A stretch of 29,196 nt of DNA from a virus: IMG/VR virus record IMGVR_UViG_3300028571_000085, positions 1 through 29,196 of that record; one strand, given 5' to 3'. The translations under genes were made by a program, and so were the position numbers. The notes under the pieces are model-generated. The model had not been told where the DNA came from. It was given only the letters and a program-made list of their open reading frames with translations, and did no database searches. Of this stretch, positions 8,536 through 29,196 are shown piece after piece (position 1 is the first letter of the stretch; every line of letters begins with the position of its first letter).

Positions 8536-9735
8536 ATGAGTTCTGCAGTAAAATCAATAAGATCTTCAGATATAAGTACAGTTCCTTATAGAGTAAATAA
8601 ACAATTTACTTTTGAAAGTAGTTCATTTTCACAAAATGGAATTATTGGTTATTTAGGATATCTTGAAACAGGATCTGCATTAGATCAATTAGATGAACAT
8701 CAGCTAATATACTACTCAATAAGGCAGTTATATTATGGAGGTGAAATAACTAGCTCCATATTAATAGATAATACAAGCGGGTCACACTATGATAATTACC
8801 AGCAATCTACAGCTGCATCAGGAACGTTTGAATACGAAATAAAAAACTTTCCAACAGAAAATAGATCTGAAATAAGAGCATTATCTATTCCGCAATCATT
8901 ATACGGTGAAAAATTAAAGCCAAGTACTTTTATATTACAGGATAATACTGGCAGTTATTACATAGTAGATGACAGTAACGGTAACTTATTCGATATTATA
9001 AGCTTACCTAATCCATATGTTGTTAACGGTGAAATTCAATCAAATTATTTTGAAAATGTAAACATTAATGCGCTACCGAAAGTAGGAAATGTATTTTACG
9101 CACATGGTATTGCTGTTATAACAAATCAAAATTATCTAAACATATTTCCAAAAGATTGTACACTAACAGGAGGAGTTGTATATCTCATTCCTACACCTAC
9201 ACCTACTCCAACACCAACAGCAACACCAACACCAACACCAACACCAACACCAACACCAACACCAACTGCAACTGCAACTCCGGTACCTCCTACAGCAACA
9301 CCAACACCAACTGCAACTCCGGTACCTCCTACAGCAACACCAACACCAACTGCAACACCAACACCAACACCAACTGCAACACCAACACCAACTGCAACAC
9401 CAACACCAACTGCAACACCAACACCAACTCCAACTGCTTATCAATATGGGTTATATGGTTATGCTGATAGTGCAGGAGAAGCTTGTAGTCAAACAGGAAC
9501 TTATGTACAATTTGGCCCTCCTCAATTACAGGTATTTTCAACATCTGCTACACCTAGTGGTGTAACAATATTTTATAATGATAATACAATTCCACCAAAT
9601 AATCCATATGTTCTTTCTGGAACTCCAGATGGTAAATATATATTATTTTCACTAGCATCTGATATCCCACCTGTTTATTATTTTGGATATTATAATAGAA
9701 CAACTGGTGCTATAACTTCAGTTAATGCTTGTTAA
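8536..9735 (+). CDS. Modular virion protein: domain A, Thr-Pro linker, Cys-bounded tip module
   Basis: 399 residues. Residues 1-218 form a domain paralogous to the N-terminal part of the previous gene product. Residues 219-301 are almost entirely Thr-Pro, with some Ala and Val: an extended, rigid linker. Residues 302-399 form a compact aromatic-rich module with a Cys near its start (EACSQTG), a [17 protein letters not shown] core and Cys as the last residue. It resembles the C-terminus of the 1599-residue protein. The build (anchor domain, proline-rich stalk, exchangeable tip) suits a fibre or decoration protein that touches the host surface; that is inference. The codons of the linker and tip end in T or A more evenly than in the upstream half, compatible with insertion of foreign sequence. 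Confidence 0.82.
9190..9438 (+). repeat. Thr-Pro coding minisatellite (ACACCA hexamer array)
   Basis: 249 bases, all in frame, built mainly of the hexamer ACACCA (Thr-Pro) with ACTGCA/ACAGCA (Thr-Ala) variants. Inside it a 39-base block centred on CCGGTACCTCC occurs twice in tandem (CGGTACC at 9281 and again at 9320). All unit sizes are multiples of three, so slippage would change linker length without shifting frame. The repeat also keeps other frames open on both strands, producing spurious ORFs. Confidence 0.95.
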
Positions 9736-22565: not shown

Positions 22566-22629
22566 ATAACATTAGTTATAGGTTACTATAATATTTATAT
22601 ATATAATAATTTATATAACCTAATGTTAT
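22566..22629. repeat. Inverted repeat spanning the terminase leader
   Basis: ATAACATTAG at 22566-22575 is the exact reverse complement of CTAATGTTAT at 22620-22629, which overlaps the terminase start codon at 22628. The 44 bases between are almost pure A/T. In RNA the arms could pair and hide the start, or in DNA they could bind a dimeric regulator. No U-run follows, so a terminator is unlikely. Confidence 0.5.
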
Positions 22630-24235
22630 GTCTCAAGATAATACGCCTAATCAACTATCAATAAAAGAAGCAATTAAGCAGGAATTTGTTAAATGTGCAA
22701 CAGATCCTGCTTATTTTATGCGCAAATATTATATGATCCAGCACCCCAAAAGGGGTCGAATACAGTTTGCATTATATCCATTTCAGGAAAAAGTACTAAA
22801 ATTATTACAAAACAATGAATATACAATAACTAACAAATCAAGACAGTTAGGTATATCAACGTTAGTATCTGCATATTCTCTATGGTTAATGTTATTCCAT
22901 AGAGATAAAAACGTATTAGCTATTGCAACCAAACAGGAGACAGCTAAAAATATTGTAACTAAAATTAGGTTTGCATATCAATCTTTACCAAACTGGTTAA
23001 AAATAAAAACAGTTGAAGATAACAGGTTAAGTCTAAGATTAGCGAACGGTTCACAAGTAAAAGCTGTTGCAGCATCACCGGATGCAGGCCGCTCTGAAGC
23101 TGTATCATTACTTATATTAGATGAAGCAGCCTTTATTGAAAACATTGATATAATATTTACAGCCGCTCAGCAAACATTAGCAACTGGAGGGCAATGTATT
23201 GCTGTTTCTACACCGAATGGTACTGGTAACTGGTTCCATAAAACATTCTCAGCATCTCAATTAAGTGAAAATAAATTCATACCCATATCATTACCTTGGA
23301 CAGTTCACCCGGAAAGAAATCAAACATGGAGAGATGAACAAGATAAAATCCTAGGTATAAGAGCAGCAGCTCAAGAGTGTGACTGTTCATTCACCACATC
23401 GGGTGAAACAGTAATTGAACCTACAATATTAAACTGGATAGAATCTAACACAATAGAAGAGCCTATCGAGAAAAGAGGAATGGATGGTAATCTATGGATA
23501 TGGGAACCAGTTGATTATAATAAAAATTATGCAGTAATAGCTGACGTTGCAAGAGGAGATGGAAAAGATTACTCTGCATTTCATATTGTTGATATCGAAT
23601 CAAACACCCAAGTAGGAGAGTATAAAGGTCAAATAGGAACTAGAGAATATGGTAATTTATTAGTAGGTATTGCAACAGAATATAATGATGCATTACTAGT
23701 AATAGAGAATAATAATATAGGATGGGACGTTGTTCAAACAGCAATTGAAAGAGGGTATAGAAACCTATATTACTCACCATCATCTGATCTAGCACTAACA
23801 AATGTAGAGATGTATCTTAATAAATTTAACTCCGGAAACGGAATGGTACCTGGTTTTTGTACGAATTTAAAAACAAGACCTCTTGTTATTTCGAAATTAA
23901 TCTCTTATCTTAATGAAAGGTCTTTAACAATAAAGTCTAAAAGAACACTATCAGAACTAAGAACCTTTATTTGGAAAAACGGCAGAGCACAGGCTATGGA
24001 TTCATATAACGATGATCTAGTCATACCGCTATCTATAGGAATGTTCTTAAGAGATACGGCTTTAAAATTTATGCAGACAGGCGAAGACTTAGCACGAGCT
24101 TCACTAAATGGAATGGGTAAAACAGGTAATAATGGCGGGTTTCAAATTTATAGTCCTAGTGATTATGGAGGTCAGAATCCATGGAATCAAACTAATATTT
24201 ACGGCCAACAAGAAGATCTTAGTTGGTTAATATAA
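22628..24235 (+). CDS. Terminase large subunit, T4 gp17-like
   Basis: 535 residues. This is the packaging motor ATPase and headful nuclease that docks on the portal and drives DNA into the prohead. The ATPase has Walker A KSRQLGIST (residues 70-78) and Walker B LLILDE (161-166) with catalytic Glu166, then STPNGTGNWF as the coupling motif. The RNase H-like nuclease has ADVARGDGKDYSAFHIVD (Asp306), VIENNNIGW (Glu360) and a later YNDDLVIPLSIG acidic site. It is somewhat shorter than T4 gp17 (about 610 residues) but has both domains. It lies 20 bases before the portal gene, an order common in T4-like phages once gp18 and gp19 are moved elsewhere. No small terminase is recognised in the window. 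Confidence 0.95.
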   Translation: MSQDNTPNQLSIKEAIKQEFVKCATDPAYFMRKYYMIQHPKRGRIQFALYPFQEKVLKLLQNNEYTITNKSRQLGISTLVSAYSLWLMLFHRDKNVLAIATKQETAKNIVTKIRFAYQSLPNWLKIKTVEDNRLSLRLANGSQVKAVAASPDAGRSEAVSLLILDEAAFIENIDIIFTAAQQTLATGGQCIAVSTPNGTGNWFHKTFSASQLSENKFIPISLPWTVHPERNQTWRDEQDKILGIRAAAQECDCSFTTSGETVIEPTILNWIESNTIEEPIEKRGMDGNLWIWEPVDYNKNYAVIADVARGDGKDYSAFHIVDIESNTQVGEYKGQIGTREYGNLLVGIATEYNDALLVIENNNIGWDVVQTAIERGYRNLYYSPSSDLALTNVEMYLNKFNSGNGMVPGFCTNLKTRPLVISKLISYLNERSLTIKSKRTLSELRTFIWKNGRAQAMDSYNDDLVIPLSIGMFLRDTALKFMQTGEDLARASLNGMGKTGNNGGFQIYSPSDYGGQNPWNQTNIYGQQEDLSWLI

Positions 24236-24255
24236 TATATTTATATTTATAACAA

Positions 24256-26190
24256 ATGGCAGAATCAAACGTATTTAGTAGATTAAAAAGATTATTCTCT
24301 ACAGATGTAGTAATAAGAAATATTGGTGGGAACCAACTTAAAGTAATAGATACCGATCGAATTCAAACAAACGGCGTATTACAAACCAATGCCCTGGTCG
24401 ACAGGTTCAATAGAGTATATACTACATCAAACTCATACGCATACAACCTTAACACTAGTCAGAACTATCAGACTATGCGCGTCCAGCTCTACTCTGACTA
24501 CGAAGCTATGGATACAGACGCTATTATTGCATCAGCATTAGATATTGTATCTGACGAATGTACACTAAAAAATGAACAAGGAGATGTGCTTCAGATTAGG
24601 TCATCTGATGAAAACATTCAAAAAATACTATATAATTTATTTTATGATGTATTAAATATAGAATTTAATTTGTGGTCATGGATTAGAAATATGACCAAAT
24701 ATGGAGATTTTTATCTTAAATTAGAAATTGCAGAAAAAATAGGAGTATATAATGTAATTCCATTCTCAGCGTATACAATCGTAAGATTAGAAGGTATCGA
24801 TATTAGTAATCCTTCTTATGTACAATTTAAATTTGATCCGACTGCAGTATCAGGAGGCACTTCTGGATATATGGCAACATATTCTGGAATGATAGAAGGT
24901 AAAGATGGAATAACATTTGAAAATTATGAAATGGCACATTTCCGCTTATTAGGAGATGTAAATTATTTACCATACGGAAGGTCCTATTTAGAGCCTGGAA
25001 GAAAAATATTTAAACAAATGGTGTTAATGGAAGATGCGATGTTAATTCACCGTATAGTAAGAGCACCAGATAAAAGAGCATATTATGTTAATGTTGGAGC
25101 TATTCCTCCTAATGAAGTAGAGACGTATATGCAAAGAATGATCTCTAAAATGAAGAAAATTCCTTTTGTAGATCCAAATACAGGTCAATATAATCTTAAG
25201 TATAATATGCAAAATTTACTTGAAGATTATTTTATACCAGTTAGAGGTAACGATACATCTACTAGAATAGAAACTGTACCCGGATTACAGTATAACGGAA
25301 TAGAGGATGTTGCATATCTAAGAGATAAATTATTTGCCGCATTAAAGATCCCTAAAGCGTTTATGGGATATGAAAAAGATCTAACAGGTAAAGCAACCTT
25401 AGCTGCAGAAGATATAAGATTTGCAAGAACAATTGAAAGAATTCAAAGAATCGTACTATCGGAGCTAACCAAAATTGCACTAATACATTTATATACTCAA
25501 GGATATACAGCAGAATCACTAACAAATTTCGAACTATCCCTTACTACTCCATCTATAATATACGATCAAGAAAGAGTAGCGTTAATGAAAGAAAAAGTAG
25601 ATTTAGCAGCTCAAATGACTGAAAACAATCTATTTCCTAGTGACTGGATATACGATAATTTATTCCACTTAAGTGAAAATGAATATGACGAAATTAGAGA
25701 TTTAATATTAGAAGACAAAAAGAGACAATTTAGGTATACTCAAATTGAAACCGAAGGAAACGATCCTTCAGAGTCAAATCAAGCATATGGCACCCCACAT
25801 CAAATCGCAAGTCTATACGGAGGAAACTCAGTAAGAACTGCCGCATCAAAAGTACCTTTAGGATATAACGAAAAAGACCCGAGTGAGCCTATTAAGGTAC
25901 CAGGAAGGCCTCAATCTAGGGCTTCATTTATAAACACTGCAGATGATCCACTAGGTAGAGATAGAATGGGCTCATACGATATGAAGGCAAAACCATCATC
26001 AGGAGAGGATGCTACAGGTAAAACAAAATATATTGGAGGCTCACCTTTATCGTTAGAAAGTAAACAAGCGCAAATAGTTTATTATACTAATAAATCAATG
26101 TTTGATAAAATTAATGTAAATCACAAAGTTAATTTATTTGAACAAAGTGATTTACTAGACGAAGATAATATTATTAGTGATATTCAATAA
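24256..26190 (+). CDS. Portal vertex protein, T4 gp20-like
   Basis: 644 residues. It forms the ring at the head vertex through which DNA enters and leaves and on which terminase docks. The order of features fits gp20: an N-terminal YSDYEAMDTDAIIASALDI block, then WSWIRNMTKYGDFYLKLEI, then DAMLIHRIVRAPDKRAYYVN and GQYNLKYNMQNLLEDYFIPV, and LTGKATLAAEDIRFARTIER followed by IQRIVLSELTKIALIHLY. The last 130 residues or so extend past the usual core and are charged and Gly/Ser-rich. The TATTTATA-like sequence at 24238-24251 precedes the start. It is longer than T4 gp20 (about 524 residues). Confidence 0.93.
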   Translation: MAESNVFSRLKRLFSTDVVIRNIGGNQLKVIDTDRIQTNGVLQTNALVDRFNRVYTTSNSYAYNLNTSQNYQTMRVQLYSDYEAMDTDAIIASALDIVSDECTLKNEQGDVLQIRSSDENIQKILYNLFYDVLNIEFNLWSWIRNMTKYGDFYLKLEIAEKIGVYNVIPFSAYTIVRLEGIDISNPSYVQFKFDPTAVSGGTSGYMATYSGMIEGKDGITFENYEMAHFRLLGDVNYLPYGRSYLEPGRKIFKQMVLMEDAMLIHRIVRAPDKRAYYVNVGAIPPNEVETYMQRMISKMKKIPFVDPNTGQYNLKYNMQNLLEDYFIPVRGNDTSTRIETVPGLQYNGIEDVAYLRDKLFAALKIPKAFMGYEKDLTGKATLAAEDIRFARTIERIQRIVLSELTKIALIHLYTQGYTAESLTNFELSLTTPSIIYDQERVALMKEKVDLAAQMTENNLFPSDWIYDNLFHLSENEYDEIRDLILEDKKRQFRYTQIETEGNDPSESNQAYGTPHQIASLYGGNSVRTAASKVPLGYNEKDPSEPIKVPGRPQSRASFINTADDPLGRDRMGSYDMKAKPSSGEDATGKTKYIGGSPLSLESKQAQIVYYTNKSMFDKINVNHKVNLFEQSDLLDEDNIISDIQ

Positions 26191-26223: not shown

Positions 26224-27087
26224 ATGAGTACTATTAAAAAGCATTCTAAATATAAAAACACCGGAATTCTGTTTGAACTATTAGTAAGACAGGTAACCTC
26301 CGATATGATGTCCAATCAAGACTCTAAAGCAGTATCTATTATAAAAAAATTCTTTAAAGGAACAGAAATGTCTAAAGAATATTCATTATATAATACCATT
26401 ATTAATGCACCTAAACTTAGCGAAGGAAAATCTGAATCATTAATTAACGTTGTATTAGAGCAGAGTAAAAAATTACAAAAAGACAAATTAAATAAAGAAA
26501 AGTATAATCTTATTCGAGAGATTAAAAAACATTACGATGTAGAAAACTTTTTCAAAGCTAAAATTGATAATTATAAATTATCTGCTGCTATATATAACCT
26601 AATAGAATCTACCAATGATAAATCCTATACAGATACAAAAACTATTGTTGTAAATAAATTAACTATTTTAGAACACGTAACTAAAGAGTTAATGAATGAG
26701 AGTAAAATAGAGAAAAAAGCAGTAGAAGAATTTATGAAGGAAGATAAAGATATTAGAATTCTTGCTTATAAAATACTAGTAGAAAAATTCAATACAGAGT
26801 ATAACAGCCTATCTGATGAACAAAAATCAATACTAAAAGAATATATAAATAATATATCAGATACAAAACAACTAAAGGTATTTCTAAATAATAAGATATC
26901 AGAAGTTAAATATGAAATAGAAAATTTAATACCTAAAATAGAAGATAAAGTTACTACAATTAAACTAAATGAAGTAGTAACTCTTATAAAACCTATTTCA
27001 GAAAGACAATCAATAAAAGAAGATAATTTAGTTTCGTTAATGCAGTATTATGAATTAGTTAAAGAAATTAAACTATCATTAAAATGA
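26224..27087 (+). CDS. Helical head-region protein, unknown function
   Basis: 287 residues, nearly all helical and rich in Lys, Glu and Ile. It opens MSTIKKHSKYKNTGILFELL, a start I recall from uncharacterised T4-like marine phage proteins next to the portal gene. Several amphipathic helices follow, with no enzyme motif. Its place directly after the portal, where T4 has prohead core and protease genes, suggests a role in prohead assembly. The stop overlaps the next start (ATGA). A TATTTATTATTA motif lies in the 33-base gap upstream at 26197-26208. Confidence 0.75.
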   Translation: MSTIKKHSKYKNTGILFELLVRQVTSDMMSNQDSKAVSIIKKFFKGTEMSKEYSLYNTIINAPKLSEGKSESLINVVLEQSKKLQKDKLNKEKYNLIREIKKHYDVENFFKAKIDNYKLSAAIYNLIESTNDKSYTDTKTIVVNKLTILEHVTKELMNESKIEKKAVEEFMKEDKDIRILAYKILVEKFNTEYNSLSDEQKSILKEYINNISDTKQLKVFLNNKISEVKYEIENLIPKIEDKVTTIKLNEVVTLIKPISERQSIKEDNLVSLMQYYELVKEIKLSLK

Positions 27088-27617
27088 ATAACGATAAGCT
27101 AAAACATTTTATTAAAAAGCAGGTATTAGAGTATATAAAGGTTGAAGAAGAGTCTTCAACTGGAGGTGAAGGTTATTTAGGTAAGACTGCATATAATCCA
27201 AATAAGAAAGCACAAGGAACAGCGCATAATTATTTAAAAAATAAAATGGGCTGGAAAGATGCACCGTCAGTACCTAACCGTCCTTCTAAAATGATTGATT
27301 ATATACAACTGTTTGAAGATGATAATGAAATAGAAACTATTCAAGATCCAAGAATTAAAGAATTAACAAACGAAAACTACTCTAAATTTAGAAACGAAAC
27401 TAAAACCAGATCTAAATCAGAACATTACCATAAAGCAATTTTAGAAGTTAAAAAAAGAACTAACGAGCTTAATAAATTATTAGAATACGCTATCAGACTA
27501 AAAGAAGAATTGAACCAGGTTGACGAAATTAAGTCATCTAGGCACACTTTAAATGCATTAGATAAGGTTACCGAAAACATTAAAGAGGTATATATCAAAG
27601 CTAAAAAATTAAAGTAA
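27084..27617 (+). CDS. Head-region protein with C-terminal coiled coil
   Basis: 177 residues. A helical start MNNDKLKHFIKKQVLEYIKV is loosely leader-like. A Gly-rich segment (STGGEGYLGKTAYNPNKKAQ) precedes a KNKMGWKDAPSVPNRPSK block, and the last 90 residues form charged helices and a coiled coil (ELNKLLEYAIRLKEELNQVD). It is coupled to the previous gene by ATGA. After its TAA the same frame stays open for another 45 codons of clearly protein-like sequence, described as the next feature. Confidence 0.72.
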   Translation: MNNDKLKHFIKKQVLEYIKVEEESSTGGEGYLGKTAYNPNKKAQGTAHNYLKNKMGWKDAPSVPNRPSKMIDYIQLFEDDNEIETIQDPRIKELTNENYSKFRNETKTRSKSEHYHKAILEVKKRTNELNKLLEYAIRLKEELNQVDEIKSSRHTLNALDKVTENIKEVYIKAKKLK

Positions 27618-27755
27618 ATCGCAAAGGTTAAAGGAGGAAGAGCAGCTAATACAGGAACTAAAGTAACATTTGGTAAGAGAAGAATAGGTAAATTTAAAAA
27701 AAGACAAAACAAACACAGCAGTGTAGGTAAAAAATATAGAGGACAAAGTATATAA
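27618..27755 (+). CDS. Putative 45-aa basic protein with ATC start, or read-through extension
   Basis: Directly after the TAA at 27615-27617, in the same frame, 45 codons read (I)AKVKGGRAANTGTKVTFG, then KRRIGKFKKRQNKHSSVGKK and YRGQSI before TAA. Fifteen of 45 residues are Lys or Arg and none is acidic, a composition unlikely for random A/T-rich sequence. No ATG, GTG or TTG starts it. The codon after the stop is ATC followed by GCA AAG, just where M-A-K would be expected, and abutting stop-start pairs occur elsewhere (13341-13346). Options are an ATC start, UAA read-through joining it to the upstream coiled-coil protein, or an ATG changed to ATC by mutation or sequencing error. DNA or scaffold binding is inferred from charge. 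Confidence 0.6.
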   Translation: MAKVKGGRAANTGTKVTFGKRRIGKFKKRQNKHSSVGKKYRGQSI

Positions 27756-27762
27756 TTAAAAT

Positions 27763-29196
27763 ATGAAACCAATACAAAATCAATATCAGGACCTTTTAGA
27801 AGGTAAAATGTCTAAACATAACTTTTTAAATAATATTAAAAGTACATTATCACAATATGTTTCTAAAGGAAATTCCTACGAAGACGCTATTAGCATATTA
27901 AAGAGTAAAAGAATATTGTCTGAAGTTAAACCTAATGAAATAGATACAGTACAAGACAAAAAAGGAAACTTTACTAAACGAATCAAATTATCTGATAAAG
28001 ATAAAAAAACTGTTGGAAAAGTTCAAGCGTTAATGGCTAAAGAAAAACCATTAAAAGAAATGTTCTCATCATCTCTAAAGCCAAATAGTAGTTATGAATA
28101 TAGCGGAGGTGCAGAAACAGAAATATTAAAATATGTTGGTAAAAGACAAGATAATCCTGATATCAAAGTAGGATCTAGTATGGGTAAAGGACATATCTTT
28201 CAATGGCCTGATGGTAAGTATTTTGAATTAGGTCCAATATCTGTTATGAAATATATTAACAAGATAGATAATGAAGAGGATGAAGAGATAATTAATAGAT
28301 ATGACCGTGAACAAGAAAAACATGCATTACCTGGTGGAAATATATACGAAAGTGTTGAAATGCCTGCAAATCTAATAGCAGACATTGATAAAGTAAATCC
28401 ACTTGAATATAATACAGGATTAGATTATGAATTAGATTTATCAGGAGACTTTTCAGCAGAGAGCTTAGTTAAATGCGCTAAAAAAGTTGTTAAGAATTTA
28501 AAGAAAAATCCTATATATTATACTAATTTAAAAGCTGAATTAACTCAGAAAATTAACAATAAAAAAGTAATATCTTCTGAGTATACTGAATTAAAAAAAG
28601 ATAATCAAGTAGATAAATTAAATCAATTAAAATCTATAGTTAAGAAAGAAATTGCTAACACTAAGACATCTTTAAGTAAGCAAGAAAAAGCATCTAAAGC
28701 AATGCCAAAAGGTGTTAAGTTAATGAAAGAAGAAAAAGAACAAAAACCAAAACTATCTGCAAAACTGATACAAGGTATAATTCAAAAAAGCGGAGGTCCT
28801 CGTAAAGATTTATATTATACAGAAGATTTAAAAGATGGGAATGTATATGTTATAAGTAAAAATCAAGGAATGTATGATTTAGTAGGAAATGCTAGAAAAA
28901 ATATAGAAAAATACTTTGATATACAAGAAGAGTCTGAAAATTTAGAAGATAGATATTGGTACGAATATATTATTAAACCTAATCCTGATAAACCATATCC
29001 AACACAGCCTAAAGCTGATATCGATTTAAATATAGATGATATTTTTGAAAATAACGAAAAAGAAAGAGCACCAAAACTATCTGCAAAACTGATACAAGGT
29101 ATAATTCAAAAAAGCGGAGGTCCTCGTAAAGATTTATATTATACAGAAGATTTAAAAGATGGGAATGTATATGTTATAAGTAAAAATCAAGGAATG
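27763..29196 (+). CDS. Large repeat-containing head-region protein, 3'-truncated by window edge
   Basis: Starts at ATG 27763 after an A/T-rich leader and stays open to the last base (478 codons, no stop). The N-terminus MKPIQNQYQDLLEGKMS has LLE followed by Gly, fitting the T4 prohead-protease rule. Middle parts include KGHIFQWPDGKYFELGPISV (about 147-166), GDFSAESLVKCAKKVVKNLK followed by KNPIYYTNLKAEL, and long charged helices. From residue 329 a 108-residue unit begins PKLSAKLIQGIIQKSGGPRK and contains YVISKNQGMYDL; it restarts at residue 437 and is cut by the window end. The function is unknown; position after the portal suggests a prohead or head-internal role. Confidence 0.78.
   Translation, partial: MKPIQNQYQDLLEGKMSKHNFLNNIKSTLSQYVSKGNSYEDAISILKSKRILSEVKPNEIDTVQDKKGNFTKRIKLSDKDKKTVGKVQALMAKEKPLKEMFSSSLKPNSSYEYSGGAETEILKYVGKRQDNPDIKVGSSMGKGHIFQWPDGKYFELGPISVMKYINKIDNEEDEEIINRYDREQEKHALPGGNIYESVEMPANLIADIDKVNPLEYNTGLDYELDLSGDFSAESLVKCAKKVVKNLKKNPIYYTNLKAELTQKINNKKVISSEYTELKKDNQVDKLNQLKSIVKKEIANTKTSLSKQEKASKAMPKGVKLMKEEKEQKPKLSAKLIQGIIQKSGGPRKDLYYTEDLKDGNVYVISKNQGMYDLVGNARKNIEKYFDIQEESENLEDRYWYEYIIKPNPDKPYPTQPKADIDLNIDDIFENNEKERAPKLSAKLIQGIIQKSGGPRKDLYYTEDLKDGNVYVISKNQGM
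28746..28872 (+). repeat. 127-base exact direct repeat, copy 1
   Basis: Identical base for base to 29070-29196, 324 bases (108 codons) downstream and in the same frame. The bases before the two copies differ (A at 28745, C at 29069), so the left border is real. The right border cannot be seen because copy 2 ends with the window. Confidence 0.95.
29070..29196 (+). repeat. 127-base exact direct repeat, copy 2 (at window end)
   Basis: Identical to 28746-28872, including all third codon positions, and reaches the final base. A contig that ends exactly on a repeat of internal sequence is what a de Bruijn-graph assembler produces at an unresolved tandem repeat, so the true copy number and sequence beyond this point are uncertain. 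Confidence 0.93.

Follow-up and report, generated by a model that had tools for sequence, protein, structure and literature searches.

The window, that is the whole 29,196-nt stretch of viral DNA analysed here, carries an orthologue of a small, strongly basic gene from the head cluster of T4-like environmental phages, and this copy has probably, though by no means certainly, lost its start codon recently and is now decaying or expressed at most weakly. The frame in question (27618-27752 on the + strand, 45 codons; to 27755 with its TAA stop) reads ATC GCA AAG ... ATA TAA and translates as IAKVKGGRAANTGTKVTFGKRRIGKFKKRQNKHSSVGKKYRGQSI followed by the stop. ATG, GTG and TTG are absent from it, and an in-frame TAA at 27615-27617, the stop of the 177-aa ORF 27084-27617, lies directly before the ATC, all of which agrees with the preliminary description of this region. 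The 145-bp unannotated gap that the frame fills is by far the largest between plus-strand genes of the window, the rest measuring 66 bp or less. No second copy of the small basic gene was found elsewhere in the window, and a promoter and terminator scan of 27400-28000 found neither.

Features of the head-gene region of the window
Feature	Position	Strand	Basis or remark
Terminase large subunit	22628..24235	+	Pfam Terminase_6N
T4-type portal protein (gp20)	24256..26190	+	Pfam Portal_T4
Conserved 287-aa gene 3' of the portal gene, no function assigned	26224..27087	+	
Upstream 177-aa gene, no function assigned; TAA directly 5' of the ATC	27084..27617	+	
Small basic head-cluster gene, copy with its stop codon; putative remnant or ATC-started	27618..27755	+	Homology, synteny
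ATC at the family's start-codon position	27618..27620	+	Other 204 loci: ATG 202, GTG 2
AGT ATA (Ser-Ile) versus GGT AGA (Gly-Arg) in close relatives	27747..27752	+	Family columns 99% G, 93% R
Downstream gene, running off the contig end (478-aa frame); the L004 version has 549 aa; in relatives the prohead protease gene comes next	27763..29196	+	

Two repeat structures were observed in the contig. A 141-bp repeat occurs at 28732-28872 and 29056-29196, both copies inside the 478-aa frame, where they encode LIQGIIQKSGGPRKDLYYTEDLKDGNVYVISKNQGM; the two differ at four positions, all within the first 14 bases, and the contig terminates in the second copy, which leaves an exact 127-base repeat at its very end, the pattern expected where k-mer assembly halts at a repeat. 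Separately, the ORF at 8536-9735 contains a low-complexity stretch (9160-9440) encoding a run of short-unit repeats.

The queries for scanning IMG/VR were family alignments and the products of the 177-aa gene and the portal gene, and the loci obtained were searched with profiles built in this analysis. A homologous small gene was present in 206 loci, including the window and its own fetched copy (L001); the other 204 encode 109 distinct proteins, some loci overlapping because the same contig was fetched more than once. As its translation aligns with this family in hundreds of viral contigs, the 45-codon frame is, by sequence comparison, not a chance frame. Family members are orthologous genes of 40-47 aa on T4-like phage contigs, located after the portal gene and ahead of that for the prohead protease; they have the consensus MAKxKG..KxxFGKRxxGKAxKSxNKHxxxxKxYRGQGR, a Lys+Arg content of about 34% and a median net charge of +12. 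In most relatives with enough DNA beyond the portal gene, the small gene lies 1.4-3.3 kb downstream of the portal gene, with a 177-aa-type gene on one side and a 478-aa-type gene on the other; in L004 the latter is followed by the prohead protease (Peptidase_S77), one acidic gene and the major capsid protein Gp23. A single copy is present in every one of 18 large records, and two more distant records (L085, L091) hold none. An identical 40-aa member, MAKIKENNNKVSFGKRKRGSAKKSFNKHTPREKAYRGQGR, recurs in 46 fetched loci (L204-L256), many of them on small contigs. Among genome contigs, the family was matched by two MAG loci only, one labelled Chitinophagaceae, too few for naming a host; the closest isolate portals belong to Flavobacterium phage immuto and are 58% identical to that of the window.

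In the sequences compared, the window copy is tied to this unnamed family (L013, L005, L018, L020 and others) by homology and synteny, and it is set apart by its altered start and tail. It resembles the relatives in sequence, length, charge and gene position, matching the core KxxFGKRxxGKxxK..NKH....YRGQ with a profile score of 52.7 bits and lying, as they do, downstream of the portal gene between the 177-aa-type and 478-aa-type genes. It keeps 17 of the 20 columns with conservation of 90% or more, departing at M1, G44 and R45. Whereas all of the other 204 loci have an ATG or GTG start, the window is the sole exception with ATC; likewise, nearly all relatives end in or near GQGR/GQGK (103 of the 109 distinct proteins have this C-terminus), whereas the window copy ends in GQSI. 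In place of the window's TAAATCGCA, the five contigs closest to it in this region have TAAAATGGCA. The preliminary description had supposed that ATG GCA AAG would be normal here, and relatives indeed carry ATG GCA AAA or ATG GCA AAG at this place. Its suggestion that a small basic gene really exists here and goes unnoticed for want of a start is likewise borne out by homologues, which occupy this position as independent genes starting with ATG, and the check that it proposed for stops, frameshifts or lack of conservation in relatives left the gene standing.

We propose that a real and conserved gene, usually single-copy and orthologous to the small basic head-cluster gene of T4-like environmental phages, has had its start codon changed to ATC and the near-invariant Gly-Arg at its C-terminus replaced by Ser-Ile. 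Most likely, initiation would thereby cease or fall to a trace level, the peptide would not reach useful amounts, and the copy, released from constraint, would be drifting toward loss. In L006, a close relative represented by a 7.5-kb contig, this place no longer holds the gene and its two neighbours adjoin directly, so that it can evidently be lost here. Any loss in the window would be recent, given the 17 intact conserved columns and a frame free of stops and frameshifts.

Substitution patterns suggest that nonsynonymous change on the window branch exceeds the family's usual constraint, albeit on small numbers. Pairwise, L005, L009 and L008 differ by 0-2 nonsynonymous and 5-8 synonymous changes, compared with 7 nonsynonymous and 5 synonymous differences between the window and L013; when codons are polarised by hand, the window branch receives about 6 nonsynonymous changes and 1-3 synonymous ones. 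Taking the window-branch dS as about 0.09, half of the portal dS of 0.18, the Poisson probability of at least six nonsynonymous changes is 0.0004 at a dN/dS of 0.1, 0.013 at 0.2 and 0.18 (not significant) at 0.4, an excess that involves few substitutions and includes two changed codons in a variable stretch. The downstream gene is itself fast-evolving (dN/dS about 0.47 versus L013), so the contrast holds against the terminase, portal, 287-aa and 177-aa genes (0.03-0.14) and not against every neighbour. At columns that are at least 95% conserved, the small gene departs at 2 of 15, compared with 1 of 471 in the terminase, portal and 287-aa proteins together (Fisher p 0.003). The open frame is no argument for function, as it stays open in 62% of simulations with eight neutral substitutions.

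The strongest competing explanation, which we hold to be possible but clearly less probable than a lost start, is a functional ATC-initiated gene with low or regulated peptide amounts, comparable to Listeria rnhC (ATC) or infC (ATT). ATC starts do exist: that of Listeria rnhC was experimentally confirmed in a 2026 study, and work cited there reports weak ATC initiation in E. coli (PMC13068326). The frame is open, and its intact columns include the whole FGKR..NKH..YRGQ core. However, a start other than ATG or GTG occurs in no other matched locus, an exact-pattern search with the window's ATC junction found no shared ATC in IMG/VR, from which near-identical records may have been withheld, and the near-invariant C-terminal GR is lost along with the start while nonsynonymous change is raised. 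We give slightly less weight again to the tentative reading of a gene still alive, in which a weak ATC start particular to this lineage of T4-like phage keeps the dose of a basic head peptide low.

An error in base calling or assembly at 27618-27620, possibly also at 27747-27752, with an ATG in the real genome, we regard as unlikely. This is a metagenomic contig with a visibly assembly-limited end, but the whole pattern would need three independent substitutions at conserved codons, and the good conservation of the neighbouring head genes argues against general sequencing error. Identity to L013 and L012 is near 92-93% on both sides of the gene, with no breakpoint inside it, and L013 has one extra base before its ATG relative to the window, which makes for more than a one-base difference between the two sites. 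ATC initiation and assembly error, both named in the preliminary description, keep some probability; each is less likely than a recently inactivated copy, an option it did not list, in view of the lost GR and of nonsynonymous change raised relative to the terminase, portal and 287-aa genes. Its third option, programmed read-through of the TAA at 27615-27617 to extend the 177-aa protein by a basic tail, is very improbable: the stop is in the same frame immediately before the ATC, and L005, L007 and L008 (TAG ATG GCA) share this layout of stop and start, but relatives do not keep a fixed frame relative to the upstream gene, the small gene having its own ATG in another frame than the upstream stop in L002, L003, L004, L009, L012 and L013, and no fused protein was seen.

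A replacing copy may lie elsewhere in the genome of the window virus, since Flavobacterium phage immuto has a gene resembling PHROG phrog_516 at a distance of about 10 kb ahead of its portal gene. When loci lacking a significant family match were searched with a relaxed profile, a small gene with MAK...RPGVHAKxK...YxGQG was recovered in L063 and L092 (6472-6609), and both relatives match phrog_516 (48 aa, no function assigned) weakly; in L092 this gene is closely followed by another, the beginning of which is similar to that of the gene downstream in the window. The phrog_516 core RPGVHAK nevertheless differs from the FGKRxxGKA..NKH core of the window's family, the window gave no match to phrog_516 at E <= 1, and a literature search turned up nothing on phrog_516. 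A second profile, phrog_17967 (41 aa, no function assigned), was matched weakly and in register by 5 of 16 family members, including the C-terminal half, at E values of 0.006-0.1, below a convincing threshold; the window protein did not match it. Searches of Pfam and of solved structures gave no match, NCBIfam gave weak matches only (E 0.086 or more), and tblastn of the window protein and one family member against phages gave none, where the low-complexity filter perhaps masks such K-rich queries. An AlphaFold model of the L013 relative contains one helix (20-39) and is too poor to use (mean pLDDT 58.5, pTM 0.19).

Position and charge suggest that the family may serve as a prohead-core or internal-head peptide, perhaps binding DNA or other nucleic acid. 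In T4, the small genes for gp67 and gp68 sit between portal and prohead protease, and their products are degraded by that protease. Both are prohead core proteins present in hundreds of copies, gp68 not being essential (PMC9958956). The likeness to the window's family is one of gene position, with no sequence relation shown, and the family is short and strongly basic.

Taken as a family, these genes constitute a widespread, tiny and basic component of the head-assembly cluster of environmental T4-like phages, for which Pfam and NCBIfam hold no model and PHROG offers weak matches. The window copy would neatly illustrate the loss of a start codon from a frame that has stayed open, a kind of copy that gene finders drop silently. 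If the ATC does initiate, it would represent an unusual form of dosage control in a virion gene.
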